Assembly (NCBI GenBank): GCA_017399965.1
Contig: JAFQAP010000030.1
Location: forward strand, 1 to 64,000
Source of the DNA: Clostridia bacterium
Lineage (GTDB): Bacteria > Bacillota > Clostridia > Oscillospirales > CAG-382
Length of the DNA stretch: 64,000 nt
Direction of reading: 5' to 3'
Part shown: piece after piece, positions 660-30,901 of the stretch
Numbering within the stretch: the stretch's first letter is position 1
How the letters are laid out: each line of letters opens with the position of its first letter
Program-made: the position numbers and the translations under genes
The notes under the pieces: model-generated
Seen by the model: the letters and a program-made list of their open reading frames with translations, nothing else
What the model was told of the DNA's origin: nothing
Database searches by the model: none

Positions 660-1472
660 ATGGCGTATAATTGGATTGATTCAAAAGACTACACAATGGA
701 TTGCTTTTTGCTTTTTGACCGTTGGATATTAAGATGGATATTAAAAGAAAACGATTGGTATGACGGAGATTATGTAGTAGATATGTCAAAAGCTTTGTGG
801 CATTATCCCTATGTGAAAACATTTTGCGTTAACAAAGCTCCCGAAACCAAGTCGTTTATTGAAAAGATCGAACGAATTTCTCTTAATAACCAATGGGCTG
901 ACAAAGAGTTAAAAGATGCTGAAAACAAAATTCTTCAGGGTATTGAGACCTTTGTCGTATACGCATATCCGGAAATTATGGAGCAGGTAAACTATATTCG
1001 CAATTGGGACGAAAAATATCTGCACGAACTTGTTGATGTAGCAGATAAGGTCGTACTTGACATTGGTTCCGGAACAGGCAGACTTGCGTTTGCCGCCGCT
1101 AAAAAAGCAAAACGAGTTTATGCAAGCGAACCGTGCGATACCTTGCGGGAATATATGCGCGATAAAATCAAAGCGCAAGCTATTTTAAATATTAAGGTGT
1201 TGGACGGAGAAATAATGTGTTTACCTTACGAGGACAGCACATTTGACGTTGTATTAAGCGGTCATGTTGTAGGTGATTTCTATGATGCCGAGATTGCAGA
1301 AATGGAACGAGTAACAAAACCTAACGGATGGATTGTGATCTGCAACGGCGAGGATGAATTCAAAAGAACTGCTCCGAATGCTGAATTGACAAAACGAGGG
1401 TTTGAGTGGTTCTCACACGAAAGTGTAGAAGGCGGAATTATTTATAATTACCGCAAACACGTTGTTAAATAG
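660..1472 (+). CDS. class I SAM-dependent methyltransferase
   Basis: This 270-residue protein has a roughly 120-residue N-terminal part without a recognised domain, then a Methyltransf_11-type domain. Motif I is VLDIGSGTGRLAF, motif II ends in YASEPCD, and a motif IV-like strand reads FDVVLSGHVVGDF. The start ATG at 660 follows an AAAGGAGAA ribosome binding site inside the end of the upstream methyltransferase, pointing to translational coupling. A bidirectional terminator follows. The substrate is unknown; neither a small-molecule nor a nucleic-acid target motif (such as NPPY) is visible. AT-rich like its upstream partner. Confidence 0.8.
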   Translation: MAYNWIDSKDYTMDCFLLFDRWILRWILKENDWYDGDYVVDMSKALWHYPYVKTFCVNKAPETKSFIEKIERISLNNQWADKELKDAENKILQGIETFVVYAYPEIMEQVNYIRNWDEKYLHELVDVADKVVLDIGSGTGRLAFAAAKKAKRVYASEPCDTLREYMRDKIKAQAILNIKVLDGEIMCLPYEDSTFDVVLSGHVVGDFYDAEIAEMERVTKPNGWIVICNGEDEFKRTAPNAELTKRGFEWFSHESVEGGIIYNYRKHVVK

Positions 1473-1497
1473 CACTACGCATATTTCCAATGAAAAT

Positions 1498-1536
1498 ACC
1501 GCCGAGGAGATTAGTTTCTCTTCGGCGGTGTTTTTG
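1498..1536. terminator. bidirectional intrinsic terminator
   Basis: A 13-bp stem (ACCGCCGAGGAGA paired with TCTCTTCGGCGGT) with a short TTAGTT loop is followed by a T-run on the + strand and preceded by A residues. It sits between the convergent methyltransferase genes ending at 1472 and 1537 and can serve both. Confidence 0.85.
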
Positions 1537-2199
1537 TTATCTCTTAACGACTGCGTACATCATAACGGGAAAGTGGTTTTCTATGGAGGTATAGCCTTGC
1601 TCCATAATTTCAAAGCCTATATCTTTTAATTCTTTTTCAAAGGTTTGGGCGGTTACTATTCTGCAGGAGGTTTCGGCTACAAGCACGGTTTCCCCTTCGC
1701 AGACACGCTCGCCCAGATCAAAGGCTACCCCAATATCCGTTTTGCGTTCTGTTTTGCCGTCCCCCATAGTGCAGATAAGGGCGATGCCGTTTTCCGTAAG
1801 ATGTTCTTTTATAAAGCAATAAAATGCTTTTCTATCTTCATCCTCGACCAGCATGTGAATAACCGCAACGGAATAGATATAATCAAACTTTTTATCAAGA
1901 GTTCCGCTTACCGCATCCAGCAGGTCGAACCGATCCGAAAACTCTTTATACCGGGCTTTGCAGTAATTGACAGCTTCGGGGGAAACGTCCGTTGCCGACA
2001 AGTTATAACCCTTTTTAAGCAAATAAACAGCGTCCCTGCCCTCTCCGCATCCGATCTCCAAAACGGAGTTTTCCTTGGAGATGCCGTGCTTTTGTATGAT
2101 CTCGGTAACGATTGGGGAGCTTTCTTCCCCCACCCATCTTAAGTTCTTTTGATGTACCGCTTTATAGCGTTCATCGTATGCTTCGTAATATTTTCTCAT
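1537..2199 (-). CDS. class I SAM-dependent methyltransferase (Methyltransf_11/25 type)
   Basis: A 220-residue protein with motif I VLEIGCGEGRDAVYL, the acidic strand-2 end SATDVSPEAV and a motif IV region around FDYIYSVAVIHMLVED. This pattern is typical of small-molecule methyltransferases of the TehB/UbiE-like group. ATG at 2199 has an upstream AAAGGAA ribosome binding site. It is the last gene of a four-gene unit (ABC ATPase, two permeases, methyltransferase) with gaps of only 12 bases or less, so it may modify or protect against the compound that the transporter moves; that is inference from position. The terminator at 1498-1536 ends the unit. Confidence 0.82.
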   Translation of the reverse strand: MRKYYEAYDERYKAVHQKNLRWVGEESSPIVTEIIQKHGISKENSVLEIGCGEGRDAVYLLKKGYNLSATDVSPEAVNYCKARYKEFSDRFDLLDAVSGTLDKKFDYIYSVAVIHMLVEDEDRKAFYCFIKEHLTENGIALICTMGDGKTERKTDIGVAFDLGERVCEGETVLVAETSCRIVTAQTFEKELKDIGFEIMEQGYTSIENHFPVMMYAVVKR

Positions 2200-16815: not shown

Positions 16816-17790
16816 TTATGAAGCGAAAAATTCAAAAACCGTTTTTAAATAGCTTTCAAGCTTGGGAGAAGCGCATATAAAAGCGGAATGCTTTGCATCG
16901 GCTATGGTCATAAAACAGCAGCCCAGACGCTTTGCCAGTTTTTTCTGAGGCTTTGGACGTACCACCGTATCCGCGCCGGAGCTGATAACAAGCACCTTTG
17001 CTTTTATCTTGTTAAGATCTTTTGTACGCAGCATTCTTTTACCCACGCTTACCGCTTCGTACATCCAGCGGTTGGTGGATGCGGAAGTCTGGTAGCGTAC
17101 ATCGGAAAGGCGCACGTCCAGATTATGTCTGAAACGGGGATAGCTGGTATCGTGGCTTTTATCAAAAGGATGGTTAGGGTTAAATTCCGAAGCGTATTTA
17201 AACTTTGCCTCCCATCCGTATTTGGCTGCTTGCTGTTTTAACATAAGCTTTAGCACGGTTATGGGGCAATCACTGGTAAAAGGATACACCATAGGCGAAG
17301 AAAGCAGTGCACGTGAAATTCTGTTACCGCAACGCATAAGATAAAGAGTGGTAATACTTCCTCCCATTGAATGAGAGAAAATATTAATATTTTCCGTTCC
17401 GCCTTGTTTTACGACTACTTCTTCTATGAATATTTCAAGATCTTTTACGTAATCTTCAAAGCTGTTTACATGGGCAAGGATATATCCCTCCACCTGTCTG
17501 TCCGAAAGACCGTGACCTCTGTGGTCATAAGTGAACACGTTATATCCTTGGTTTATGAAATACCACGCAAGCTCGGTGTATTTTTTACAGTATTCCGTAA
17601 AGCCGTGAACTATTACGATACTGCCCACGGGATTTTCCACAAGATAATTTCTGTAAAATATATTCAGCCCGTCAAATGACGTGAAAGTGCCTTCCTCGGC
17701 GTGGGAAGACAAAATCTTCTCTATCTCGATAATATGCTGTGAATATTCCTCTTCTTTGATCACTTCTACTTTTTCAGGTGTATAAAGCAT
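16816..17790 (-). CDS. alpha/beta hydrolase (monoglyceride lipase / lysophospholipase-like)
   Basis: 324 residues of the serine aminopeptidase S33/Hydrolase_4 type. The oxyanion region VHGFTEYCKKY is at about 61-71, YDHRGHGLSD at 88-97, the nucleophile elbow SHSMGGS with Ser141, the acid in SSGADTVVRP, and the His in DAKHSAF. This is the pattern of monoacylglycerol lipases and lysophospholipases. No signal peptide is present with the ATG at 17790; the longer frame to 17913 overlaps the divergent gene and is rejected. A short AAAACGG/CCGTTTT hairpin overlaps its leader. Substrate unproven. Confidence 0.85.
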   Translation of the reverse strand: MLYTPEKVEVIKEEEYSQHIIEIEKILSSHAEEGTFTSFDGLNIFYRNYLVENPVGSIVIVHGFTEYCKKYTELAWYFINQGYNVFTYDHRGHGLSDRQVEGYILAHVNSFEDYVKDLEIFIEEVVVKQGGTENINIFSHSMGGSITTLYLMRCGNRISRALLSSPMVYPFTSDCPITVLKLMLKQQAAKYGWEAKFKYASEFNPNHPFDKSHDTSYPRFRHNLDVRLSDVRYQTSASTNRWMYEAVSVGKRMLRTKDLNKIKAKVLVISSGADTVVRPKPQKKLAKRLGCCFMTIADAKHSAFICASPKLESYLKTVFEFFAS

Positions 17791-17851
17791 TGTAAAACGG
17801 CTCCGTTTTGTGTTTTTTAAATTAATAATATTATAAAAGGCGGTGATAATA

Positions 17852-18814
17852 ATGGCAAACAAAACAAAAAGGATCTTCAAAAGAATTTTGCAATATACCG
17901 TTATTATCGCCATTACTTTTTTAATTGTTTCCGCAGGGGCGACAAAAGTTATTTACGATTTTTGCTTTCCCCGCTATGAAAGCCCCGAAACCGTCCTTAA
18001 CGAAGAGCTTGTAAAGCTGAACGAAGAAAGAGCCCAAGCAAGCTTTTATTCAGGCGAAAATCTGCTTGCGGGATATTTATATTCCCCGGCGGATGGGACA
18101 AAAGATAATCTTGTGGTTTTCGTTTTGGGAATGAACGCAGCGGTAAACGATTATCTGTGGCAGATAAAAAGCTTTACGGATAACGGCTACGGCGTGTTTA
18201 TATTCGATCCCACGGGATGCGGAAGCAGCGAAGGAAAAAGTGCTGTAGGTTTTTCCCAGATACTGCTTGACCTGAATGCCGCGCTGGAGCACGCAGAAAA
18301 CGAAGAAAACTTTGGGTTTGAACGCATATTTCTGTTCGGACACAGCAGAGGCGGATACGCGGCTTGCTGTGCTTTGCACTTCGGGCACGATATAACTGCG
18401 GTTGCTTCCGTAAACGGTATAAACAGCGCTATGGAGGGTATTATGATGCCCGCCGCAAAAGTTATAGGAGATATTGCATACACCAATTATCCTCTTTTAT
18501 GGCTGTACCAGGTAAGCCTTTTCGGAACAGAGGCGGTTAATATTTCAGCGGTTCAAGCGCTTGAAGAAAGCAAAATCCCTGCTTTGATAATACATTCCGC
18601 AGAGGATGAAGTTGTACCTGCGGACAGATTTTCTATTATTTCCCGCGTGGAAAGCACGGATTATATTACCGAAATACCCGGTTTTGACACAAAAAACAAG
18701 GATTCCCACACCGGAATACTTTTTGATAACGACGGTAAAGCAAACAAAGAATTGTTTGAAACCGTAATTCATTTTTTTGAAAAAGCTGCTGATGCGGCGG
18801 AAAACGGTGAATAA
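17852..18814 (+). CDS. membrane-anchored alpha/beta hydrolase
   Basis: 320 residues. A hydrophobic N-terminal segment (about 15-34) anchors or exports the protein. The catalytic part has FDPTGCGSSEG, the nucleophile elbow GHSRGGY with Ser165, the acid in HSAEDEVVP and the His in KDSHTG. It resembles the COG1073 dienelactone-hydrolase-like group. ATG 17852 is preferred over the upstream ATG 17843 because of GGCGGTG spacing. The stop overlaps the start of the glycosyltransferase gene (TAATG), suggesting a shared role in cell-envelope glycolipid metabolism; that is an inference. Confidence 0.8.
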   Translation: MANKTKRIFKRILQYTVIIAITFLIVSAGATKVIYDFCFPRYESPETVLNEELVKLNEERAQASFYSGENLLAGYLYSPADGTKDNLVVFVLGMNAAVNDYLWQIKSFTDNGYGVFIFDPTGCGSSEGKSAVGFSQILLDLNAALEHAENEENFGFERIFLFGHSRGGYAACCALHFGHDITAVASVNGINSAMEGIMMPAAKVIGDIAYTNYPLLWLYQVSLFGTEAVNISAVQALEESKIPALIIHSAEDEVVPADRFSIISRVESTDYITEIPGFDTKNKDSHTGILFDNDGKANKELFETVIHFFEKAADAAENGE

Positions 18815-19827
18815 TGAAGGAAATTGTCCTTATTCCGGCTTATAAGCCGGATGAAGAAATGTGCTTCCTTGCAAAGACTCTGCAACAGCAGGGCTTTGAC
18901 ATTTTGATAGTAAATGACGGAAGCGGAGCGGAATACAACGAAATATTTGAATCGGTGTCCCCATACGCAACCGTAATAAGCCATCTGCACAACAAAGGAA
19001 AAGGCAGGGCACTTAAAACGGGTATGGAATACATACGGGATAACTGCCCTGAATGCGAGTTTTTTATAACCGCAGACGCAGACGGACAGCACCGTGCCCA
19101 CGATATCGTGCGCGTGCGGGAAGAACTTAAAAACGGTTCTCCCTTTGTTTTGACGACTCGTCTGCTTGGCAGAAACATACCCAAACGAAGCAAGTTCGGA
19201 AACGATCTTTCAAGAGTAATATATACGCTTTCCACAGGAAGATATTTTAAGGATAATCAATCCGGACTCCGCGGCTTTTCCGCAGAAAATATTGATTGGC
19301 TTTTAAAGGTAAAGGGCGAAAAGTACGATTACGAAATGAATATGCTGTACTACGCTTCAAAGCAGGCTATACCGGTTACCACCCTTGATATTGAAGCGGT
19401 GTATATAGACGGAAACAGGTCCTCCCACTTTAACCCCGTAAAAGACACCGTACGTATTTACAGATTGCTGTTCAGTTCTGCAAAAGCCTCCATTATAACG
19501 GCAATTCTTGCCCAGATAGCTATATTTGTATGTGCACTTGTTACCGACGTTCCCTATGACAGCATTTACGTTGTCACAGCCGGACTGGGTGCCGCAATCA
19601 CCGCCTATGTTATAAACAAATTTTTCATTTTCAATAACGTAGACTTCCGCGATGGCGGCAGGACTATGCTTTTTACCTTTTTCCGCTATATTCTCTACGC
19701 CTTGGGAAGCGCGGTAATAACCTCGTTTTTCCCCTTCGTTCCTTTGTTTATCGCATTTAATTTCTGCGCTTTGCTGGGCTTACCTATACGTTATTTTGCC
19801 CATAAATACATAAGCGCTTTTAACTGA
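18814..19827 (+). CDS. GT2 glycosyltransferase fused to a GtrA-like membrane domain
   Basis: 337 residues. Residues 1-210 form a DPM1-type family 2 glycosyltransferase: VLIPAYKPDE, VNDGSG, the DAD motif at 88-90 (ADADGQH), and DNQSGLRGF. Residues about 220-337 contain four membrane helices of the GtrA type (GLGAAITAYVINKFFIFNN), a family thought to move polyprenyl-linked sugars across the membrane. A single protein may therefore charge a polyprenyl phosphate with a sugar and help flip it. It is translationally coupled to the hydrolase upstream and overlaps the convergent plsX by 8 bases. Confidence 0.88.
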   Translation: MKEIVLIPAYKPDEEMCFLAKTLQQQGFDILIVNDGSGAEYNEIFESVSPYATVISHLHNKGKGRALKTGMEYIRDNCPECEFFITADADGQHRAHDIVRVREELKNGSPFVLTTRLLGRNIPKRSKFGNDLSRVIYTLSTGRYFKDNQSGLRGFSAENIDWLLKVKGEKYDYEMNMLYYASKQAIPVTTLDIEAVYIDGNRSSHFNPVKDTVRIYRLLFSSAKASIITAILAQIAIFVCALVTDVPYDSIYVVTAGLGAAITAYVINKFFIFNNVDFRDGGRTMLFTFFRYILYALGSAVITSFFPFVPLFIAFNFCALLGLPIRYFAHKYISAFN

Positions 19828-20797
19828 GTGCATTTTCCACAGCGGTATCAAAGCCGCTTTCGGAAAGCTTTAACACCTGTTCAATACACGAAACTGCGGT
19901 GCTGCTGTTTGCGGCACCGTGCATTTTTACTACCGTCTTTTTTGTGCCAAGGAAGGTAGCTCCTCCGCGGGAATTAAAATCAAAATTCCTTTCAAGCTCT
20001 TTTGAGACCTTTTCAGCCGATTCGGGAGCAAGGGACGCAAGTATTCTTTTGCTCATTGCGGCTGCTATCTTTCCCGTTGCTTCGGTATCTTTTAAAACTA
20101 TATTGCCGGCGTATCCGTCGCAGGCGAGCACGTCCGCTTTTCCCAAAAGCACGTCGCTTCCCTCAAGGTTACCTGTAAAGTTAAGCCCCGAAGATTCCAA
20201 AAGCGCGTACGCTTCTTTTGTCGCCTTATTTCCCTTTCCCTTTTCTTTTCCGGTGGAAAGCAGAGCTACTCGGGGAGATTCTATACCGTACATACTTTTC
20301 ACAAAAGCGGTGCCCAATTTTGCAAATTCACAAAGATCCTTTGCGGTACAGTCTACGTTGGCTCCGCAATCCACAAGGCAAATATAACTGCCGTCCACAG
20401 CGGGAAGCGCAGAAGACAAAGCGGGACGCTTTAAGCCTTTGACAAGTCCCAGCCTGCATATAGTGCCGATAAGAAGAGCGCCCGTGTTGCCTGCAGATAT
20501 CATACCTGCACATTCGTTATCTCTTAAATATTCCAGTGCAAGCACCATAGAACTGTTATCGCATCCGCCGAAAACGCTCATAGGCGACTGAGAATTGGTT
20601 ATATATTCTTTCGTATTCAGAACGGTATAACGGTCTCGGGATATACTGTTATCCCCCATTATTTTATCGATCTCCTCTTTATCGCCGGAAAACACACAAA
20701 ACACGTCGCTGTGTTCTTTCATACAACGAGCAGAGCCGCAAAGAAGCGGCAACGCTCCGTTATCGCCGCCCAGAGTGTCTATAACTATCTTTTTCAT
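19820..20797 (-). CDS. plsX: phosphate acyltransferase PlsX
   Basis: PlsX interconverts acyl-ACP and acyl-phosphate, the acyl donor for PlsY in phosphatidic acid synthesis. The 325-residue length fits. Motifs include DTLGGDNG, SVFGGCDNSSM, SAGNTGALL, VDCGANVD and DGYAGNIVLK, all typical of the family. The usual MGGD at the N-terminus is LGGD here. It is the last gene of degV-degV-fakA-plsX, which puts the two sources of acyl-phosphate (PlsX from acyl-ACP, FakAB from free fatty acids) under one promoter. The 63-base gap to fakA contains a hairpin. Confidence 0.92.
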   Translation of the reverse strand: MKKIVIDTLGGDNGALPLLCGSARCMKEHSDVFCVFSGDKEEIDKIMGDNSISRDRYTVLNTKEYITNSQSPMSVFGGCDNSSMVLALEYLRDNECAGMISAGNTGALLIGTICRLGLVKGLKRPALSSALPAVDGSYICLVDCGANVDCTAKDLCEFAKLGTAFVKSMYGIESPRVALLSTGKEKGKGNKATKEAYALLESSGLNFTGNLEGSDVLLGKADVLACDGYAGNIVLKDTEATGKIAAAMSKRILASLAPESAEKVSKELERNFDFNSRGGATFLGTKKTVVKMHGAANSSTAVSCIEQVLKLSESGFDTAVENALS

Positions 20798-20860: not shown

Positions 20861-22486
20861 CTATTCGATTGCAAGAATAAAACTGTATACGTCCTGACCG
20901 CCCCGTACGTATCCGCACTCAATAAGGGGATAATCGGTTTCCAGCATAGCTTTAAGCTGAACAAGCTCGGAATGAGTTACGTCAGCTCCGTAAAAAACGG
21001 TAATGACCTGCTTATCGTCAATATCCTCAAGCTTTTGCAGAATACCGGAAACAGCAGACAGCTTGTTTTGGCAGGCGCAAAGAATATTATCGTCATTCAA
21101 TCCGATATAATCGCCTTTTTTAACATCTATACCGGACATTTTTGTATCCCTTGTAGCCACGGTTACGTATCCCGTGGTAACGTATTGCATACTGTCAAGC
21201 ATACTTTGGGATACTTCCTCCACGGTTTCGAGAGAAAGGTCCATCATAGAAAGGGCGGAATATCCTTCAGCAACAGAGCGGGAAGGAATTACGGTTACCG
21301 AAGCTCCGTCATACATTTCCGCAGCCTGCTTTGCGGTCAAAAATACGTTGGAATTGTTGGGTAAAACTATAATATTTTCCGCATTAAGCTTTTTAAAGGC
21401 TTTAATAAAATCATCTGCGGAGGGATTTTGTGTCTGTCCGCCGTCTACGATAGCGGAAACGCCTATTTCGCTGAAATAGGATTTTATTCCGTCCCCCGAG
21501 CAAGCGGCAACCACAGCGTATTTTACCTTTTCTGCCGCTTCCTTCTGAGTTTCGTTGTGCTGAACGGACATATTTTCTATCTTTACGTTTAAAAATTCAC
21601 CGTATTTAAGTCCCAATTCCAAAACCTTATTGGGTTCAAAGGTATGAATATGTACTTTTACTATTTCCCCGTCGCATACGGAAACGATGGATTCACCGAG
21701 AGCTTCCAAAACAGAAATAAACTCGTTGTGATCGAAGTTTTTTACATCTGTCTTTGAATTCAGAAGCAGTAATATAAACTCGGTGCAGTATCCGTATTCA
21801 AAAACGGAATCCGCATCAAAGGAATTATTTGAAGAAGGGGAAAACACCATTTCGGAAACGCTTACGGTATCTATAATCTCGCCTTTAATTGCAGAAAGCA
21901 TTCCCTCAAAAACGCACAATACCCCTGCTCCGCCGCTGTCGACCACACCCGCTTCCTTCAGCACAGACAAAAGGTTTGGGGTGTTTTCAAGAGAACGGCG
22001 GGTTTCCGCACAAAGATCTTCAAAGCATTCTTCAAAAGAAGCGTACTTTTCGCAGTTTGTGAGAATACGCTTGCCGCCGTCCTTAAGTACGGAAAGCATG
22101 GTTCCTTCAACAGGGTTTAAAACGGATTTATACGCATATTTCACGCCGGATCCAAAAGCCAACGCAAAATCGGAAATATATAGTTCTTTCTTTTCGTCGC
22201 ATCCGAAAGCGAAGCCACGTATAAACTGTGAGAAAATTACTCCCGAATTTCCTCTTGCAGACATAAGTGTGTTTTTGGAAAAGCCTGCCATATATTGGGA
22301 AACGTTTTCGCTTATCTGTGCGGAAAAGCCTCCTTCAAAAGTTTTTGCCATATTTGAACCCGTATCTCCGTCGGGAACGGGAAACACGTTGAGGTTGTTT
22401 ATTACATCTGAATTTAATCTTAAATTTTTAAAGCCGTTTTCCAACAGAAGTCTTATATCGCTTCCGTTAAGTCGGTTTGTCTGCAT
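20861..22486 (-). CDS. fakA: fatty acid kinase catalytic subunit (DAK2 domain, FakA)
   Basis: 541 residues. FakA phosphorylates a fatty acid held by FakB (DegV). The N-terminal DAK2/dihydroxyacetone-kinase-like domain has NNLNVFPVPDGDTGSNM, whose Asp residues hold Mg-ATP, plus SARGNSGVIFSQ and GTMLSVL. The C-terminal DegV-like/FakB-docking region (about 330-541) has CSGDGIKSYF and PNNSNVFLTAKQAAE. Two DegV partners lie immediately upstream, and plsX downstream, giving the complete incorporation route for exogenous fatty acids. Confidence 0.92.
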   Translation of the reverse strand: MQTNRLNGSDIRLLLENGFKNLRLNSDVINNLNVFPVPDGDTGSNMAKTFEGGFSAQISENVSQYMAGFSKNTLMSARGNSGVIFSQFIRGFAFGCDEKKELYISDFALAFGSGVKYAYKSVLNPVEGTMLSVLKDGGKRILTNCEKYASFEECFEDLCAETRRSLENTPNLLSVLKEAGVVDSGGAGVLCVFEGMLSAIKGEIIDTVSVSEMVFSPSSNNSFDADSVFEYGYCTEFILLLLNSKTDVKNFDHNEFISVLEALGESIVSVCDGEIVKVHIHTFEPNKVLELGLKYGEFLNVKIENMSVQHNETQKEAAEKVKYAVVAACSGDGIKSYFSEIGVSAIVDGGQTQNPSADDFIKAFKKLNAENIIVLPNNSNVFLTAKQAAEMYDGASVTVIPSRSVAEGYSALSMMDLSLETVEEVSQSMLDSMQYVTTGYVTVATRDTKMSGIDVKKGDYIGLNDDNILCACQNKLSAVSGILQKLEDIDDKQVITVFYGADVTHSELVQLKAMLETDYPLIECGYVRGGQDVYSFILAIE

Positions 22487-22492
22487 TTTTGT

Positions 22493-23383
22493 CTATTCTT
22501 TCCCTTCGATAGTTACGGGCTTGCCGTAAACGTATGTAATAAGAGTGCCGGGACCAACCGATGCACCCACTATAGGACCTATATTTGTAATGTATACCTG
22601 CTTGAATTTACGAAGTGCCAAAACCTCATCACGAAGCTTTTCAGCTTCTGCCAACGCATCGCCGTGGGAAATGCACAGAACACTGTTTTCCGCATCCTCG
22701 GCTGCCGCCACCGTATCCTTTGCCATTTCTTTGCGGGCATTAACGGCGCCTTTTACCTTTCTGTACGCATAATTATGACCGTTAATATCGGATATAATAA
22801 GCGGTTTTATGCCGAAAACGTTCCCCAAAAACGCGCTTGCGGCAGTAACTCTGCCTGCTCTGCGCAAATACTCAAGGCTGTCCACCGTACCGCATTGGTT
22901 TACTTTAAGTCTGTTTTCTTCCAGCCAGCAAACGATTTCGTCTATACTTTTTCCTTCGTTGCGCATCAGCGCCGCTTTCACTAAAAGCATACCCTGACCC
23001 AAAGAGCTGATAAGCGAATCCACACAGCATATCTTTGCATCCGCGTATTTTTCCGAAAGCTCGGCTGCCACCACGTTTGCCAGCCCCACCGAACCGGAAA
23101 GTCCCGAGGAGCAAGATACGTAAAGTATGTCCTTTCCCTGCTCCAGCCAATAAGTAAACACGTTCACAAACTCTTCACGGGGGACCTGGGTGGTTTTTAC
23201 GATTACGCCGTTACGCATAAGATCGTAAAACTCTTTTGGTGAATATTCCTCCCAATCAAGCGATGCGGCGTGCTCTTCGCCGTTTGCAACGAAATTCATT
23301 TTAAGATATTCAATATTGTATTTGCTGCGTATCTCTGAAGGCAGATCGCAGGTGGAATCTCCGATAATTACAAAATCTCTCAT
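22493..23383 (-). CDS. DegV family fatty-acid-binding protein (FakB-like, 1)
   Basis: 296 residues. The N-terminal GDSTCDLPSEI motif and KTTQVPREEF (Thr-Ser/Thr-Gln region) followed by SSGLSGSVGLA are FakB hallmarks that hold the fatty acid carboxylate. The second domain has the RRAGRVTAASAFLGN segment and a C-terminal GPIVGASVGPGTL motif. It presents a fatty acid to FakA, encoded 6 bases downstream. Its specificity (saturated or unsaturated chain) cannot be read with confidence. Confidence 0.9.
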   Translation of the reverse strand: MRDFVIIGDSTCDLPSEIRSKYNIEYLKMNFVANGEEHAASLDWEEYSPKEFYDLMRNGVIVKTTQVPREEFVNVFTYWLEQGKDILYVSCSSGLSGSVGLANVVAAELSEKYADAKICCVDSLISSLGQGMLLVKAALMRNEGKSIDEIVCWLEENRLKVNQCGTVDSLEYLRRAGRVTAASAFLGNVFGIKPLIISDINGHNYAYRKVKGAVNARKEMAKDTVAAAEDAENSVLCISHGDALAEAEKLRDEVLALRKFKQVYITNIGPIVGASVGPGTLITYVYGKPVTIEGKE

Positions 23384-23404: not shown

Positions 23405-24337
23405 TTATTTACCCGAAATTCTTTGCATTATTTCCTTTTCTTCGGCAAGTCCTTCGGAAATGGGCTTTCCGAGATAGAATGCTGCGCACAGACCGGGACC
23501 GATAGAAGGACCGCAAGCCATACCTACGTGTGTGATGATAACTTCTTTGGGAGCTATCTCGGTGCGTATCATATCAGCCAGCATTTCCGCCGCAGCGAGA
23601 CGGTTTGAATGGGCAACAAAAACTATATTGTTTTCAGGCTCCGCAATAGTTTCCTTCATATACTTGACAGTAGCGTCAAGAGCGGTGCGCTTGCCTTTAA
23701 ATTTAACGATAACTTCTGCAAGACCCTTGGAATTGAAATCTGCCATAGGATTAACACCTACAAGCGTTCCGAACAATGCCTTAAAATTGGAAATTCTGCC
23801 TGTTTTTACAAGGAAGAACAGATCGTCCATAGGTCCCATCTGGTGAACACAACCGCGGATATTATTGATATAATCTGCAGTTTCTTCTATTGTCGCGCCC
23901 TCGTCACGCTTTTGTGCCGCCAAAACGGTGAGAAGCGCCATAGAGGTTGAATAACGAAGAGAATCCACACAAATTATCTTTCTGCCGGGATATTTTTTCA
24001 TAAGATCCTCGGCAATTCGCATACAAAGGCTATAGGTGCCTGAAAGTGCGGAAGAAATGGATATGCTCAATATATCCTTTCCCTGCTTAAGATACTTTTC
24101 GTATACCTCGTAGCCCTCTTGCTCGGTAAAAGTAGACGTTTTGTATAAAACATTTCTGCCGCTCATGGATTTATAAAATTCCTCGGGTGAAATTATACCC
24201 CAATCCAGATCGGCGTTTTCCGTATGTCCATCGGGAAAATATACTGTGCCGTGAAGATAATCGGGAATATCAAAGCGTTCTCTCAGCTCTGCGGGAAGAT
24301 CACAAGCGCTATCGGGAATAATTACAAAATCGTTCAT
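23405..24337 (-). CDS. DegV family fatty-acid-binding protein (FakB-like, 2)
   Basis: 310 residues, paralog of the next gene: PDSACDLPAEL, KTSTFTEQEGY, ISSALSGTYSLC, KTGRISNFKALFGT and GMACGPSIGPGL. First gene of the fak-plsX unit. ATG 24337 is preferred; the longer in-frame reading to 24490 would run through the promoter at 24377-24405. Having two FakB proteins for one FakA is common in Firmicutes and usually means different chain preferences. Confidence 0.9.
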   Translation of the reverse strand: MNDFVIIPDSACDLPAELRERFDIPDYLHGTVYFPDGHTENADLDWGIISPEEFYKSMSGRNVLYKTSTFTEQEGYEVYEKYLKQGKDILSISISSALSGTYSLCMRIAEDLMKKYPGRKIICVDSLRYSTSMALLTVLAAQKRDEGATIEETADYINNIRGCVHQMGPMDDLFFLVKTGRISNFKALFGTLVGVNPMADFNSKGLAEVIVKFKGKRTALDATVKYMKETIAEPENNIVFVAHSNRLAAAEMLADMIRTEIAPKEVIITHVGMACGPSIGPGLCAAFYLGKPISEGLAEEKEIMQRISGK

Positions 24338-24518: not shown

Positions 24519-25472
24519 TTGCTTTATTTATACATCGCCTTGGGAGTAATCGTATTAAGCGCCGTAATAGGTGCGGCTGTAATGCTGAAAATTACCGTCC
24601 CGATTTCAAAAAAAGTTTATTATGACACCCTGGTGCGGAATTCACCCGATAAATGGAAAAGAGAATGCTCCTGCCCCGAAAACGAAGAGCAGCTTGAGAT
24701 GTGGAACACCGGTTGTGCCTGGGCACAAGAAAACAAAGACCGCATGCGGGAGGTAACGATCACCAACGACGGCTTGAAGCTGGTTGGCGAACTGTATGAT
24801 TTCGGCTCGGATAAATGCGTTATAATTCTTCCCGGCAGATGCGAAAGTCTTATGTATTCCTATTACTATGCCCGTCCTTACGGAGAAATGGGCATAAACG
24901 TATTCCTTCCCGACCCCAGAAGCCACGGTAACAGCGAAGGTACTTACAGCACGCTGGGCGTATGTGAAGGCAAGGATACTAACGCTTGGGCAAGATATCT
25001 TAACGAAAAAGAAGGAATTAACCAAATTTATCTTCACGGCGTATGTGTCGGCGCAAGTACAGCTATATTTGCCGCTGTGGATGAAGATATGCCGAAGTGC
25101 ATTAAGGGTATGGTTAACGAAGGCTGTTACGTTAATTTCTATGAAACATTTAAAAACCATATGATAGTGGACGGACATCCCGTTTTCCCCGTTTGCGGTA
25201 TGGTAATGCGTCAGGTTAAAAAACACACCGGCGTGGATATTATGAAAAAGTGTCCTTTGAATTATGTGGGCAAGGTGAAAATTCCCGTTTTGTTTATTTT
25301 CGGCGAAAAGGATATTTATACCGTACCCGAAAAGAGCAAGATACTTTTTGCAGCCTGCGGAAGCAAGGATAAAAAGCTGGTTTGGTTCCCCAAGGGCGGT
25401 CACAGCCATCTGCGTATAAACAACACCGAAGATTATGATAACGCGGTAAAGGAATTTATATCCGCTCATTAA
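24519..25472 (+). CDS. alpha/beta hydrolase with Cys at the nucleophile position
   Basis: 317 residues. One N-terminal membrane helix (about 3-26) anchors the protein outside or at the membrane. The hydrolase core has PDPRSHGNSEG, an elbow reading HGVCVGAS where the usual Ser is Cys176, the acid in FGEKDIYTVP, and the His in KGGHSHLR. Related COG1073 proteins carry GxSxG at this place. The start is TTG 24519, with a GTGGAGGAAA site 8-9 bases upstream; no ATG fits. Single gene with its own promoter and terminator. Whether the Cys supports hydrolysis (as in dienelactone hydrolase) is open. Confidence 0.82.
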   Translation: MLYLYIALGVIVLSAVIGAAVMLKITVPISKKVYYDTLVRNSPDKWKRECSCPENEEQLEMWNTGCAWAQENKDRMREVTITNDGLKLVGELYDFGSDKCVIILPGRCESLMYSYYYARPYGEMGINVFLPDPRSHGNSEGTYSTLGVCEGKDTNAWARYLNEKEGINQIYLHGVCVGASTAIFAAVDEDMPKCIKGMVNEGCYVNFYETFKNHMIVDGHPVFPVCGMVMRQVKKHTGVDIMKKCPLNYVGKVKIPVLFIFGEKDIYTVPEKSKILFAACGSKDKKLVWFPKGGHSHLRINNTEDYDNAVKEFISAH

Positions 25473-25483
25473 TTAAAAAAGAA

Positions 25484-25527
25484 AAACATCCGATAATCTC
25501 TTTGTTTTATCGGATGTTTATTTTTTT
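25484..25527. terminator. bidirectional intrinsic terminator
   Basis: A 13-bp stem AAACATCCGATAA/TTATCGGATGTTT with a 10-base loop, followed by a T-run on the + strand and by TTTTCTTTTTT on the minus strand. Lies between convergent genes ending at 25472 and 25518. Confidence 0.88.
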
Positions 25528-25898
25528 GTAAATTTGTCAAAAAAGGAATGTTCTTTCCCGAAAGCGCAATCGTAAACGAAGTGTTCACAGTTGTTTTCAA
25601 GGATATTGTATCCCGTTTCTCCCAGCCTGCTTTTTGCACGGGCAACTGTTTTTTCGGGAGAAAAGCGCTTTTTCTTTTCCTGCTTTTCGCATACTCCCGT
25701 TTCACACAGGTTTCCGCAGGAAAAGGTAAGCACATCTGTTGCCAAAACAGCGATTTCTTCAGGCTTTACGCCGGTATTATCGGGATATCCGAACTGAATA
25801 ACGGTATCATCATCCACGTATATTCCGTAGTGGTAATAAAATGAAACCTTGACACGGATAATATCTCCGTATGACGGTAAAACGGTTTTCCAGATCAT
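25518..25898 (-). CDS. LRAT-domain (NlpC/P60-fold) protein
   Basis: 126 residues. The N-terminal strand-His motif YYHYGIYVDDDTVIQF (His23) and the C-terminal helix NNCEHFVYDC (Cys104) match LRAT, a circularly permuted NlpC/P60 fold. LRAT/PLAAT enzymes move acyl chains through a Cys-thioester in eukaryotes; bacterial roles are mostly unknown. The second family His, normally in a VIH segment, is Gln35 here. A middle insertion has paired Cys residues (FSCGNLCETGVC). It overlaps the ACP gene by 4 bases and closes the acyl-lipid operon. Confidence 0.8.
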   Translation of the reverse strand: MIWKTVLPSYGDIIRVKVSFYYHYGIYVDDDTVIQFGYPDNTGVKPEEIAVLATDVLTFSCGNLCETGVCEKQEKKKRFSPEKTVARAKSRLGETGYNILENNCEHFVYDCAFGKEHSFFDKFTKK

Positions 25899-26134
25899 TT
25901 TTGATTTTCTTCCACCTTGCGGATAAGGTCTCCTACGGTGATAAGTTCGGGAAGATCTGCATTTGTAAGTCTTACACCGAATTCCTGTTCTATACCCATT
26001 GCCATATAGAGCATACCGATGGAATTCATCCCAACGTCATCTGAAAGGGAGGATGCTTCGGTTAGGGAAGAAGAATCTATTTCCCCTTCAAAAACATTAT
26101 CCAAAACTTTTTTAAGACGTTCTAAAGTGTTCAT
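25895..26134 (-). CDS. acyl carrier protein
   Basis: 79 residues, an acidic four-helix protein. The phosphopantetheine Ser38 lies in GMNSIGML; Asn replaces the Asp of the common DSL motif, as in specialised ACPs. ATG 26134 has an AAAGGAGAA site; an in-frame extension to 26176 lies within the upstream acyltransferase gene. Overlaps both neighbours by 4 bases (ATGA). It is probably a dedicated carrier between the ligase and the acyltransferases of this operon and not the main fatty-acid-synthesis ACP. Confidence 0.88.
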   Translation of the reverse strand: MNTLERLKKVLDNVFEGEIDSSSLTEASSLSDDVGMNSIGMLYMAMGIEQEFGVRLTNADLPELITVGDLIRKVEENQK

Positions 26135-26796
26135 TTTTGTTCTCCTTTGGTAATCTTTTCGTATACTGTGCGGCATTCGTTTATCTTTTCCAAAAGAATT
26201 CCCGAAATATTGTTTATATCCGAAACAGAAGGAAACTTCTTTTTACAATATTCACTTGCGTAAAAGGGATCCCCGATAACGTACAGACGCCTTTCGCTCT
26301 TTTTAAAAGGCGGTCTGGAATAGACGGGTATTATGGGTGCCCCGCTTTGAAGGGCGATAAGCACGGCGCCGGATTTAATGTCCGAAACTCCGTCCTCTTT
26401 TTCTATTCTGCCCTGGGGGAAAACAGCCAAAGTATGTCCGTCTTTTATAACAGACACTGCTTTTCGCACGGCGTCAATATCAGATATACCTCTGTCTATT
26501 TTTATACAGCCCATAAGCTTTAAGAAAAAAGCGCGGACAGATTTCGCCATTACTTCTTCCGAAGCGAGAAAGAAAACTCTTCTGTACCAAAAACTGCTGC
26601 CCAGCAGCACTGCATCGGAAAAGCCAGTGTGGTTTGCGGCAATAAGTGCGCCGCCCTTGAAGCCGCGCTTGTATTTTTTTCCGTCAAGTCCGACAGAACG
26701 GACTTTAAAAAGACGGAACACAAAATAATGCGCTCTTCCGTAGTCCATGGGTAAGAATTTGGGATTAAAAATAGAAGTAAACTTATTTTTTGCCAT
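26131..26796 (-). CDS. PlsC-like 1-acylglycerol-3-phosphate acyltransferase (2)
   Basis: 221 residues. PlsC-family acyltransferase with NHTGFSD (NHxxxxD, catalytic His-Asp) and FPQGRIEKED (usually FPEGT, substrate binding); the Glu of motif III is Gln. IIPVYSRPPF is motif IV. It starts inside the end of the preceding acyltransferase gene (overlap 14 bases) and couples to the ACP gene. The natural acceptor may be a lysolipid other than lysophosphatidic acid, given the company. Confidence 0.85.
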   Translation of the reverse strand: MAKNKFTSIFNPKFLPMDYGRAHYFVFRLFKVRSVGLDGKKYKRGFKGGALIAANHTGFSDAVLLGSSFWYRRVFFLASEEVMAKSVRAFFLKLMGCIKIDRGISDIDAVRKAVSVIKDGHTLAVFPQGRIEKEDGVSDIKSGAVLIALQSGAPIIPVYSRPPFKKSERRLYVIGDPFYASEYCKKKFPSVSDINNISGILLEKINECRTVYEKITKGEQK

Positions 26797-27445
26797 TTTC
26801 CGTTTCCACACGTTTTTTTAATTCCTCACCCAAAGCGAAGGTCTTATCCTCGAGAATTTTTGTAAGACGTGTTATTTCTTCGGGAGAAGGATTTTCGTCC
26901 GCACAATAATCACGGAGATATATTTTTTCGCCGATCATCACACGTGTGCGCTTTTTCAGAGAATACGCTCCGTCGGTATACATAGGCACTATAGGCGCAT
27001 CTGTGCGGAGTGCTATAAAAACTATACTGGGCTTAAAGGGCCATGGCTTACCGTTAACGGGAAGACGGCTTTCGGGAAAAATACCCACGGTGCCGCCGTT
27101 ATCCAGCACCTTTAAGGATTCCGCAACAAAGGAGAAATCTCTTGCATCGCGGTTTACGAAAATACCGCCGATACCAAACAGAAATTTTGCAAACAGCTTA
27201 CCCTTGTTGAACATTACCTCTGCAATGAGAAAACGCAAGGTGCGAAAAGGATACATATTCATATACAGCACGAAATCCATTAAGGATTTGTGGTTTGACA
27301 TCAGAATACAAGGCTTGGGAAGCTTTTTTCCTTGGGATTCCTTATTTATATAATAAACCTTGGGACGAAGAAAAATTCTTGTGGGAATAAAGCCGGTTAT
27401 CTGCACGAATGCGCGGACAAAACGGCTGGGTTTACCTTGGCGCAT
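26783..27445 (-). CDS. PlsC-like 1-acylglycerol-3-phosphate acyltransferase (1)
   Basis: 220 residues. NHKSLMDFVLY (NHxxxxD), GIFVNRDARD (motif II-like), FPESRLPVNG (motif III) and IVPMYTDGAY (motif IV) are present, with hydrophobic N-terminal segments suggesting membrane association. Starts 3 bases after the ligase gene. Together with acyltransferase 2, two acyl transfers by the same operon are possible. Confidence 0.87.
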   Translation of the reverse strand: MRQGKPSRFVRAFVQITGFIPTRIFLRPKVYYINKESQGKKLPKPCILMSNHKSLMDFVLYMNMYPFRTLRFLIAEVMFNKGKLFAKFLFGIGGIFVNRDARDFSFVAESLKVLDNGGTVGIFPESRLPVNGKPWPFKPSIVFIALRTDAPIVPMYTDGAYSLKKRTRVMIGEKIYLRDYCADENPSPEEITRLTKILEDKTFALGEELKKRVETENGKK

Positions 27446-27448
27446 AGA

Positions 27449-29371
27449 TCATATCTGCCTTTCGATATATTCACAGAATTCGCGTAAAGTATAAAAATAG
27501 TTGTTTGAATCGGAATAATCAATGGGGAATTCCTTTGAAAGCTCGGTGAGCAAGGTGAAGTACTGCAGAGAAGAAGCACCCAGCTCGTGCATTACGTGAG
27601 TATCGGGCCCTATATCCTCTTTTTCCACACCGAGTATAGGCGCGGCAATAGTACGAACTTTGTCGGCAAGAGGAGAATTAACGTCGAATTCCTCCGCTTC
27701 CTTGATCTCGACTTCACTAAACGGTATAAGCTTTACTCTGCCGTCGGCAAGAGCGTTCTTAAGGTACTGTCTGCCTACCTTTATGGCAGTTTCGGAAGCG
27801 ATGGGATCGTAGGTCATATAGAACTCCCTTACCTGCATAGGCAGAGGAAGAGTCCGGTTGGTCTTATAAATATTGTCGATCATAGCGGAAAGCTTGGGTC
27901 CGCTCAAATAGGGATTTATACGGACGATCATAGTGAGCTTTTCTTCCGTTCCCTCTCCGAGACCGATAACGGAATACATCATCGCTTCGGGAATATCAAA
28001 TGCTTGCTCTATGGTATCGGGATTGATATTTTCACCGTTTTCGCCGATAACGGAATCTCCTTTTCTGCCGCGGATATAGTAATATCCGTCTACGCAGTCA
28101 ACGATATCGCCGGTGTTATACCAGCCTTCGTTAATCTTTTCAACACCGTTTATGAGCATACGCTTACAGGTGGAATTGCCCTTTACGAGCAGTACACCGT
28201 CTTCGTCTATTTTATATTCAATAGACGCGAAGGGCTTGCCCACGCTGTTTTGCATAAGCTCCGAAGGCTTGTTACGAAGTTCGGTGGATGTGATGCCCAC
28301 CTCGCTCATACCGTAACCGTTGTGCAAAGGATATCCAAGCGCGGAAAACAATTGAAGCGTGGATTCTTTTATATAACTTCCGCCGGAAATGCAGTAGCGT
28401 ACCGTGGGACCGAAAAGCTTATCGGTAACCTCGGTCATAAGCTTGCGGGAAAGCAGATTGCCCAAAGCGGGACTGAAGTTTTGAACCTTAAGGCAAAGAG
28501 CCGTTCCTTTTTCAAAGCGCTTTCTTGTTTTTTCATCTTTATTATTTATTTCACGCATTACCTGCTTTTCGATGGTATGCCAAAGGAGAGGCACCGCAAA
28601 AACGTGGGTAACCTCATGAGCACGGCAGGTCTTCATAAGAGTTTCACCGGACATATCCTTGGGGAAGACCATGGTGTTCCAATAAAAAGCGTGCCAGAAA
28701 TACACGGCAATAAGTCCGAAAACGTGGTAGAAGGGCAAAAAGCATATCTGCTTTAATCTGCCGTTTACGTGTACGGCAATAGCCATATTTTCCTCAAACA
28801 TAGGTCCTGCGTTAAGCACTTGTTCGCTTATCTCGTTTCCTGTGTAGAAGCAAACTACCTGCTTGAGAGTTGTAGCTGAGGTAGACAAAGCGATCTCATC
28901 CTCAAAGCATTCTTCAAAAGCGTTTCCCTGAGGGAGAGTCCCGATATCTATAAATTCTCCGGGAAGAGCGGTTTCTTTTTTGCCGATTATGTATTTTATA
29001 CCGAGAGTTTCAATAAGACCTGTGGACAATTTAAGAGGATGGCGGCGGTTGACGAGATAAGGCTTATTTCCGCTGCGGAGGATAGCCCAAAATGCAACTA
29101 TCCACTCGAGGCAGTTATCCATATCCAAAGCAACATAGCCGTGAGTAGCGCCGATACGTGCATACAGAGCTTCGGAGGCAGACTCGATCAGCTTCTTTAC
29201 TTCACCGTAAGAATGCTCGCGTATACGAAAACCGTCGCCGGTCTCTGCGGCAATGGCATCCGGATTGCTGAACATAATTTCATAAACGGATCTGAAGCTC
29301 TTATCGGAATTATTAAGAGCGTTAATATTTGTTTTTACAAGTTTAAGATAATCTCTCAGGTATTTTTTCAT
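27449..29371 (-). CDS. acyl-AMP ligase fused to a C-terminal acyl carrier domain
   Basis: 640 residues. ANL-superfamily adenylating domain (about 20-545): LSTSATTLKQ at the A3 position (usually TSGTTGxxK), GYGMSEVG (A5), GWYNTGDIVD (A7), RGRKGDSVIGENGENINP (A8) and AIKVGRQYLKN with the A10 Lys. Residues about 560-640 are an ACP-like domain with the phosphopantetheine Ser in HELGASSLQYF. Such a protein would activate a fatty acid as acyl-AMP and load its own or the separate carrier. ATG 29371 has a GGAG site. First gene of a five-gene unit with two acyltransferases, ACP and LRAT protein. Confidence 0.85.
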   Translation of the reverse strand: MKKYLRDYLKLVKTNINALNNSDKSFRSVYEIMFSNPDAIAAETGDGFRIREHSYGEVKKLIESASEALYARIGATHGYVALDMDNCLEWIVAFWAILRSGNKPYLVNRRHPLKLSTGLIETLGIKYIIGKKETALPGEFIDIGTLPQGNAFEECFEDEIALSTSATTLKQVVCFYTGNEISEQVLNAGPMFEENMAIAVHVNGRLKQICFLPFYHVFGLIAVYFWHAFYWNTMVFPKDMSGETLMKTCRAHEVTHVFAVPLLWHTIEKQVMREINNKDEKTRKRFEKGTALCLKVQNFSPALGNLLSRKLMTEVTDKLFGPTVRYCISGGSYIKESTLQLFSALGYPLHNGYGMSEVGITSTELRNKPSELMQNSVGKPFASIEYKIDEDGVLLVKGNSTCKRMLINGVEKINEGWYNTGDIVDCVDGYYYIRGRKGDSVIGENGENINPDTIEQAFDIPEAMMYSVIGLGEGTEEKLTMIVRINPYLSGPKLSAMIDNIYKTNRTLPLPMQVREFYMTYDPIASETAIKVGRQYLKNALADGRVKLIPFSEVEIKEAEEFDVNSPLADKVRTIAAPILGVEKEDIGPDTHVMHELGASSLQYFTLLTELSKEFPIDYSDSNNYFYTLREFCEYIERQI

Positions 29372-29404
29372 GTTACACACTCCAAAAGACAATATGACCG
29401 TCTT

Positions 29405-29433
29405 ATTTTATACAAAACTCAAATAGTTGTCAA
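29405..29433 (-). promoter_or_regulatory. sigma-A promoter of the acyl-lipid operon
   Basis: Minus strand: consensus -35 TTGACA, 17-bp spacer, -10 TAAAAT (TATAAA also possible with a 15-bp spacer), 34 bases before ATG 29371. Confidence 0.75.
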
Positions 29434-29536: not shown

Positions 29537-30901
29537 ATGAAAAAAATCCTTGCCGTACTGCTTGTTGCAGTACTTGCACTTTCTATCGCGGCTTGCGGTG
29601 ATGACGAAACATCCAAACCCGCCAACTCTGCGCCCGATAACAGCGAGACCGTGAACAACGAGTCCGCTCCCGAGGAATCTGTTCCCGCAGAATCCCAGCC
29701 CGCCGAAGGCAGCGATGACGTTTCCGTTCCCGAGGAATCTAAACCCGAAGAATCCGTACCCGATGAAAATTCCGGCGAAGATACCTCCGAACCCGAAGAT
29801 ACCAACACCATTCCCGCCTTTGTTTCCAACTTTGTAACCTGGGCAAAGCTCGGTGTCGGCCTCCGCGCTACCGACAGCACTTCCATTCAGCTTACCGGCG
29901 TTAATAAGGAAGCAGGCTACGGCGACGTTGTTATTTATACCTACGATTACGCACAGGATAAAGTAACCGTAAAGGACGGCAACTACGCTGATTACGCTTT
30001 CCTTGTTGCAGAATACGATGCATCCCTTTTCGGTGTTAAGAAGACCTCCGTACATACTGTCGGCTCCGTTTCCGATAACGCTTCTCTCACCATTCCCGAA
30101 GTAGGATTTATTATTGCCGCACACAAGGATCAGACCGTTATGGTTTCCAGACTCAGCGAATGTCCCGGTGACGTCACCCTTTTTGCGGCAGGCGTACAGG
30201 TTTGCGATGTTAACTACTCCATTACCAAGACCGGTTCCGCAATTGCTGTTGACGGCAAGATAGAAAACGCTTGGAATTCCCACAAGATCGACTCCATTAA
30301 CGAATCCAACAACAAGTGGGCGTATTGGAGCTTTGTGGAAAATGAATACTATTCCACCGCAGAGTACTACGTAACCTATGACAACGACAACATTTACCTT
30401 GCAGTAGTAGTTGATTCTCCTTATCACCACTGTCCCATCTCCCCCAGCGAACCCAACGGAATGTATGCTTATGAATGTATACAGGTAAAGATCACTACAG
30501 TAAGCCCCAAATCCGATTACATTATGGAGAATTACGATCACGTTATTAACAACAAGGCTAATACCGAAGGATATGTACGCGCTTACGGTTTTGCCGTTAA
30601 CAACGACGGTGAGACCTGCTACTACGAAAACAGCGGCGTAAGCAAGGAATTCCAGGGTGTTGCGGCATGTACCAGAGACGACGTTGCTCAGCTTACCGTA
30701 TACGAAGTATCCATTCCCTGGTCTTCTCTCGGCCTCAACGCAGACGAAGTTGATAAGTTCGGTCTTACCTTCTCTATCAACTCCACCAACGAAGAAGATG
30801 AAAAGAACGGCACATGGAGAAACCTTGTACTGTTTGACGGCGGCGGAGTTATCAACCGTAACGACTGGGCAAAGATCCCCGAAGTTACCGTAGTTCATTA
30901 A
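29537..30901 (+). CDS. lipoprotein with CBM9-like carbohydrate-binding domain
   Basis: 454 residues. Signal peptide with lipobox LSIAAC (Cys20), so the mature protein is anchored by lipid on the outer face. Residues about 22-92 are a Pro/Glu/Ser-rich linker with repeated PEES-like units. A middle beta-rich part of unknown type follows, and from about 235 to the end a family 9 carbohydrate-binding-like domain (AIAVDGKIENAWN ... YVTYDNDNIYLAVVV ... YEVSIPWSSLGL). Likely binds glycans at the cell surface. It stands alone between a promoter and a terminator; codon use looks strongly biased, as in highly expressed genes. Confidence 0.8.
   Translation: MKKILAVLLVAVLALSIAACGDDETSKPANSAPDNSETVNNESAPEESVPAESQPAEGSDDVSVPEESKPEESVPDENSGEDTSEPEDTNTIPAFVSNFVTWAKLGVGLRATDSTSIQLTGVNKEAGYGDVVIYTYDYAQDKVTVKDGNYADYAFLVAEYDASLFGVKKTSVHTVGSVSDNASLTIPEVGFIIAAHKDQTVMVSRLSECPGDVTLFAAGVQVCDVNYSITKTGSAIAVDGKIENAWNSHKIDSINESNNKWAYWSFVENEYYSTAEYYVTYDNDNIYLAVVVDSPYHHCPISPSEPNGMYAYECIQVKITTVSPKSDYIMENYDHVINNKANTEGYVRAYGFAVNNDGETCYYENSGVSKEFQGVAACTRDDVAQLTVYEVSIPWSSLGLNADEVDKFGLTFSINSTNEEDEKNGTWRNLVLFDGGGVINRNDWAKIPEVTVVH

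Follow-up and report, generated by a model that had tools for sequence, protein, structure and literature searches.

In the 64,000-nucleotide window analysed here, from Clostridia bacterium contig JAFQAP010000030.1 (assembly GCA_017399965.1), we have identified on the minus strand, running from 29371 to 25518, an operon of five genes (Table 1). They encode an AMP-binding acyl ligase fused to an acyl carrier protein (ACP) domain (lig1), two PlsC-like acyltransferases (PlsC1 and PlsC2), a free ACP and a protein of the LRAT/PLAAT fold. The initial annotation had named the same five genes and families, and Pfam profiles bear this out in every protein; lig1 matches AMP-binding (2e-30) and PP-binding (1.4e-7), both PlsC proteins match PF01553 (5e-18 each), the free ACP matches PF00550 (1.7e-7) and the LRAT protein PF04970 (2.9e-21, 76 bits against a cut-off of 24.3). 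The most likely start of lig1 is the ATG at 29371, with GGAG 8 nucleotides upstream, rather than the TTG at 29392, and that of the ACP gene is the ATG at 26134; ATGA forms the overlap between the PlsC2 and ACP genes, as well as that between the ACP and LRAT genes. At these likely starts the spacing, in operon order, is +3, −14 (or −29), −4 and −4 nucleotides, and the five genes are therefore translationally coupled. A strong sigma-70-like candidate lies upstream, yet the promoter scan as a whole returned 8 sites against 8.5 in shuffled sequence, no excess, so that transcription from one promoter, as had been proposed, can only be called plausible. The intergenic region that holds this candidate is common to the operon and to a divergent lipoprotein-like gene (454 amino acids, no Pfam family, 29537-30901), which is kept in the genus.

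Table 1. Features of the operon and of its surroundings, in positions of the window
Feature	Position	Strand	Remarks
lig1, AMP-binding acyl ligase with C-terminal ACP domain, 640 aa	27449..29371	-	
PlsC-like acyltransferase 1	26783..27445	-	NHX4D box; motif III FPESR
PlsC-like acyltransferase 2	26131..26811	-	NHX4D box; motif III FPQGR; likely start ATG 26796
Free acyl carrier protein, 79 aa	25895..26134	-	Ser in GMNSIGM; longer reading frame from 26176
LRAT/PLAAT-fold cysteine acyltransferase-like protein, 126 aa	25518..25898	-	His23, Cys104, third residue Gln35
Sigma-70-like promoter candidate, TTGACA-17-TAAAAT	29405..29433	-	11/12 matches
Alpha/beta hydrolase, convergent	24519..25472	+	conserved neighbour; homologue within 10 kb in 42/80 loci
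FakB/DegV fatty-acid-binding protein	23405..24337	-	reading frame opens 24490; likely start 24337
Second FakB/DegV protein	22493..23383	-	
FakA-like fatty acid kinase (DAK2/YloV)	20861..22486	-	within 10 kb in 39/80 loci
PlsX	19820..20797	-	
Family 2 glycosyltransferase	18814..19827	+	similar proteins near operon in 20/80 loci
Lipase-like alpha/beta hydrolase	16816..17913	-	similar proteins (lysophospholipase L2-like) near operon in 35/80 loci

The association of LRAT with ACP is conserved far beyond the window. An alignment of eight operon LRATs was used to scan 84,980 species genomes, which gave 80 loci, chosen by LRAT sequence only and with their neighbours ignored; as the query was itself built from operon members, these loci stand for one LRAT subfamily, that of the window, rather than for LRATs in general. 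All 80 lie in uncultured Clostridia, mostly from the ruminant gut. An acyl ligase was found in 78 of them, PlsC in 74 and two PlsC in 69, and the ACP stop and the LRAT start overlap or stand no more than 3 nucleotides apart in most, −4 being the commonest spacing. As a control, profiles of the operon proteins were searched around 21 LRAT genes of other Bacillota and four non-operon loci or stretches from the order, two of which are longer repeats of the same two genes (23 distinct control genes). An ACP gene stands immediately upstream of LRAT in 79/80 loci, whereas none of the 25 controls has an ACP or a PlsC within 1.5 kb, which clearly rules out that LRAT is a chance neighbour. Synteny that includes the adjacent hydrolase and the fak-plsX genes was observed in the genus members G001, G002 and G003 (long stretches) and G004 (short contig), and G007, of another genus, has the same order throughout. 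The G007 genome also carries a second LRAT domain, fused to an amidohydrolase (Amidohydro_3, D-aminoacylase-like; 777 amino acids; L017:8291-10624, minus strand), with no ACP nearby. Pairwise identities of LRAT and ACP correlate poorly (0.25), perhaps because fused and unfused LRAT rows are mixed; co-evolution of the pair is not supported and was not used as evidence.

Two operon types were distinguished. Type I, to which the window belongs, has no second ligase and runs ligase-ACP, PlsC1, PlsC2, ACP, LRAT; type II runs ligase-ACP, often an MFS_2 transporter, PlsC1, PlsC2, a second full ligase, ACP and LRAT. The type II LRAT frequently carries a C-terminal Sfp-type phosphopantetheinyl transferase (PPTase): of 20 long LRATs scanned, 15 match PF01648, and of 38 long forms, 30 have the PPTase active-site motifs intact. 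A PPTase gene adjoins the operon in several type I loci. In L113 (331-1308, plus strand) a PlsC-LRAT fusion of 325 amino acids follows directly after the C-terminal ACP domain of a ligase and has a FakB-like gene and the alpha/beta hydrolase next to it, and in L112 a PlsC-PlsC fusion precedes LRAT. The fusions of LRAT to PPTase, and once to PlsC, tie it to ACP chemistry. Some PPTase sequences are unusual. After the L112 LRAT comes a divergent PPTase-like gene (818-1651, minus strand) with no Pfam hit and weak NCBIfam matches to Npt and AusB, and a PF01648 search of its genome, G168, detects no PPTase. In L044 and L048 (Ruminococcus and an uncultured Clostridia metagenome-assembled genome), the PPTase domain fused to LRAT appears truncated, with a degenerate sequence, as if decaying.

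The Ser of the free and fused ACP, the HX4D box of PlsC and the catalytic Lys of the ligase are retained in the commonest forms of these proteins. In the window, lig1 keeps its catalytic Lys and the Ser of its fused ACP, and its P-loop, LSTSATTLKQVVC, is degenerate. Type I ligases read SATS where SGTT is expected; the loop of the second ligase of type II is textbook. Whether the ligase can charge an acyl carrier, as initially supposed, is therefore uncertain in the window's clade. The type I ligase may be weakly active or altered, or else the ACPs may be charged by another route, such as FakAB/PlsX or a further ligase-ACP pair of the genome. One such pair, an AMP-ligase and a small ACP (569 and 73 amino acids; L192:2768-4711, plus strand), is encoded in the host genome away from the operon, on a different contig.

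The LRAT fold is best known from animal lipid metabolism, where its enzymes acylate retinol and phosphatidylethanolamine; to our knowledge, almost no functions have been assigned to bacterial LRAT/PLAAT-like proteins. By profile search, the closest solved relatives of the window LRAT are human PLAAT3, HRASLS2 and PLAAT4 (PLAAT3 structure 4dot, E 6e-12), and an AlphaFold (AF2) model with a predicted local distance difference test score of 86.5 found human PLAAT3 as its best Foldseek match (E 5e-7). The catalytic dyad, His23 and Cys104, is present in 80/80 related LRATs together with Glu105, His106 and Phe107 (NCEHF). The window LRAT itself groups with standalone proteins in a clade of 26 rows that is supported at 95/92. 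Animal PLAATs are membrane-anchored. The operon LRAT lacks any hydrophobic segment, its 19-residue hydropathy peaking at 1.15, and should be cytosolic, unlike the animal PLAATs and the staphylococcal LnsA.

We give an even chance to the simplest reading, that the operon is an accessory ACP-based lipid acylation pathway of fatty-acid-scavenging Clostridia, where LRAT moves an acyl group from ACP to an acceptor; the enzyme probably takes part in the building or remodelling of an acylated lipid, with scavenged fatty acids as the source. Free fatty acids would be imported, or freed by neighbouring lipases; once activated, they would be carried by both ACPs, the free one and the one fused to the ligase. 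Intact operon ligases would perform the activation, a task that may fall to FakAB/PlsX or another ligase in the window's clade. The two PlsC-like enzymes would put acyl chains onto an acceptor, and the catalytic Cys of LRAT would accept an acyl group from the phosphopantetheine arm of ACP and pass it on, to an amine or a hydroxyl group either of that lipid or of one related to it. The sequence itself establishes the gene content with its coupling and conservation, the catalytic dyad, the fusions, the lack of FabF and FabH and the separate location of housekeeping PlsC and PlsY. Acyl-ACP as the LRAT donor is inferred from the PPTase fusions and the ACP gene beside LRAT, and the direction of transfer, the acceptor and the product are inferred too. 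The initial annotation had suggested a dedicated path to an unusual lipid. A dedicated acyl-ACP-based route has good support; an N-acylated or diacyl aminolipid would be one of several conceivable products, as the sequence names no acceptor, and lysophospholipid remodelling and ordinary phospholipid salvage are possible roles too. The more specific proposal, that a PLAAT/LRAT-fold enzyme using ACP and not phospholipid as its acyl source forms, with two PlsC-like enzymes, an undescribed pathway to an N-/O-acylated membrane lipid in uncultured Clostridia of the ruminant gut, many without fatty acid synthesis, is put forward more tentatively, at somewhat less than an even chance.

Several observations weigh against such a pathway. 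The ATP-binding P-loop of the window ligase (LSTSATTLK) is degenerate, as it is in most members of the clade that lacks a second ligase, and beside LRAT the relatives L112 and L113 carry no free ACP. Across the loci, the operon has no conserved amine-making gene and no conserved amino-acid gene, the literature gave no biochemistry for this LRAT group, and the lipase-like and Fak neighbours would also fit a remodelling or salvage role. Moreover, the third catalytic residue, which is His in the animal LRAT/PLAAT enzymes, is Gln35 in 73/80 related LRATs, Glu in 4 and Ala in 3, His being found in the relative L112. Since this residue varies across the wider superfamily, its replacement marks a divergent subfamily rather than another family.

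The metabolic background of the hosts bears on the role of the operon. FabF (PF00109) and FabH (PF08545) were both undetected in the window's genome (G000), in the genus members G001-G003 and in G007, G019, G012 and G255. With both enzymes absent, the host genus should depend on fatty acids from outside, and it appears to have lost fatty acid synthesis, a loss already reported for uncultured gut bacteria of the Bacilli order RF39 (PMC6784871). FabF is absent from 37/50 operon-bearing genomes and from 172/394 genomes of the order sample (Fisher p 7e-5), an enrichment that carries little weight because related genomes are not independent samples and no completeness values are given for the 50. 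Strict replacement of type II fatty acid synthesis by the operon is ruled out, as G019 and G012 lack FabF, FabH and the operon, and 13/50 operon genomes have a ketoacyl-synthase match. Housekeeping PlsY, and a PlsC beside an ispH-like gene, are located away from the operon. G019, which lives without the operon, retains PlsY and one PlsC; the operon is therefore accessory, and phosphatidic acid synthesis can do without it.

The same data touch on another role, in which LRAT would be a housekeeping transacylase or thioesterase that shuttles acyl groups between the fused and the free ACP or clears misloaded ACP, the operon supplying ordinary phospholipid synthesis from exogenous fatty acids with no new lipid made. 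The physical tie of LRAT to PPTase and ACP is in keeping with this, as is the frequent lack of FabF in operon genomes. Nonetheless, G019 and G012 live without both FabF and the operon, some operon-bearing Lachnospiraceae and Ruminococcus genomes retain FabF, PLAAT-type enzymes are in general transferases to lipids, and the PlsC-LRAT fusion points to a common acceptor; we regard this role as unlikely.

Of similarly low probability, in our view, is Lands-type phospholipid remodelling working like E. coli LplT-Aas, with LRAT as a PLAAT-type phospholipase/acyltransferase and the ACP ligases and PlsC re-acylating lysolipids that come from uptake or from the action of the lysophospholipase-like hydrolase nearby. 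The closest solved relatives of LRAT are indeed phospholipase A/acyltransferases, a lysophospholipase L2-like hydrolase is nearby in 35/80 loci, and NCBIfam Aas models give sub-threshold matches to the PlsC proteins, far under the cut-off. In addition, an MFS_2 transporter, found within 10 kb in 31/80 loci, is often part of the type II operon. It is absent from the window operon, however, and its modelled fold is about as close to MelB as to the lysophosphatidylcholine carrier MFSD2A, a comparison that cannot separate the two; a sequence search of the MFS protein against the PDB gave nothing useful. The PPTase-LRAT fusions and the near-invariant ACP beside LRAT fit ACP chemistry better than phospholipid hydrolysis.

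A third explanation starts from the staphylococcal LnsA, a permuted NlpC/P60 enzyme, HRASLS-like, that is required for lipoprotein N-acylation (PMC7387801). Both LnsA and the operon LRAT are bacterial proteins of permuted NlpC/P60 (LRAT-like) fold, which in LnsA serves acyl transfer. Yet LnsA is secreted, with a predicted signal peptide, uses no ACP and has a CPBP-like partner, LnsB, whereas the operon LRAT has no hydrophobic segment. No LnsB-like (CPBP-like) gene is conserved near the operon, the rest of the genome not having been searched. With this topology, and the partner missing at the operon, lipoprotein N-acylation is highly improbable and was dropped.

Returning to the ACP-based acylation pathway, known systems resemble it in part. 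Mammalian PLAAT/HRASLS and LRAT share with the operon LRAT the PF04970 family, the fold, the permuted NlpC/P60 topology and the catalytic His and Cys (NCEHF), but the latter has Gln for the third His, no membrane helix, an ACP operon and, in relatives, a PPTase fusion. BtrH, a papain-fold ACP:aminoglycoside acyltransferase (PMC10318531), is likewise a papain-like enzyme with an ACP-bound acyl donor; this is an analogy of mechanism only, as BtrH belongs to PF14399 and serves an antibiotic product, whereas the operon LRAT has only PF04970 and no BtrH_N domain. In the OlsB/OlsA and GlsB aminolipid pathways, ACP-dependent N-acylation is followed by PlsC-type O-acylation (PMC11631085). The operon likewise combines PlsC-type (PF01553) enzymes with ACP, but the OlsB-type N-acyltransferase is Pfam 13444, a domain not found among the five operon proteins, so that LRAT would be the sole N-acyltransferase candidate; an amino-acid gene is not conserved either. 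E. coli LplT-Aas, which remodels lysophospholipids (PMC11416262), also joins an acyl-ACP synthetase to a PlsC-type transferase, and an MFS transporter accompanies one operon type. The operon differs in having separate genes instead of one polypeptide, a ligase-ACP fusion, two PlsC and LRAT, and its transporter is of another MFS family than LplT. We found no report of the gene set in the open-licence literature (LRAT with ACP, PPTase or the operon), an absence that is no proof; the gene combination and the likely ACP-using LRAT are likely new, the folds being already known.

Downstream on the operon strand lie fakB-fakB-fakA-plsX, as the initial annotation had stated, with one opposite-strand alpha/beta hydrolase in between. 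The expected domains are present (PF13684/PF02734/PF21645 in FakA, PF02645 in FakB, PF02504 in PlsX), while the FakB1 and FakA equivalog cut-offs were not reached. PADLOC gave no matches, and a defence-system reading was dropped.

The gene set is widely conserved in uncultured gut Clostridia and apparently undescribed. Operon order, the 4-nucleotide overlaps and the PPTase-LRAT and PlsC-LRAT fusions link a bacterial LRAT subfamily to acyl carrier chemistry, and thereby provide a directly testable substrate for LRAT, its own acyl-ACP. Since the hosts are mostly without fatty acid synthesis, the pathway bears on how auxotrophs build their membranes, and also on which unusual lipids gut bacteria produce. 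More broadly, it may reveal that the fold of the retinol- and phosphatidylethanolamine-acylating enzymes of animals has a branch that uses ACP.

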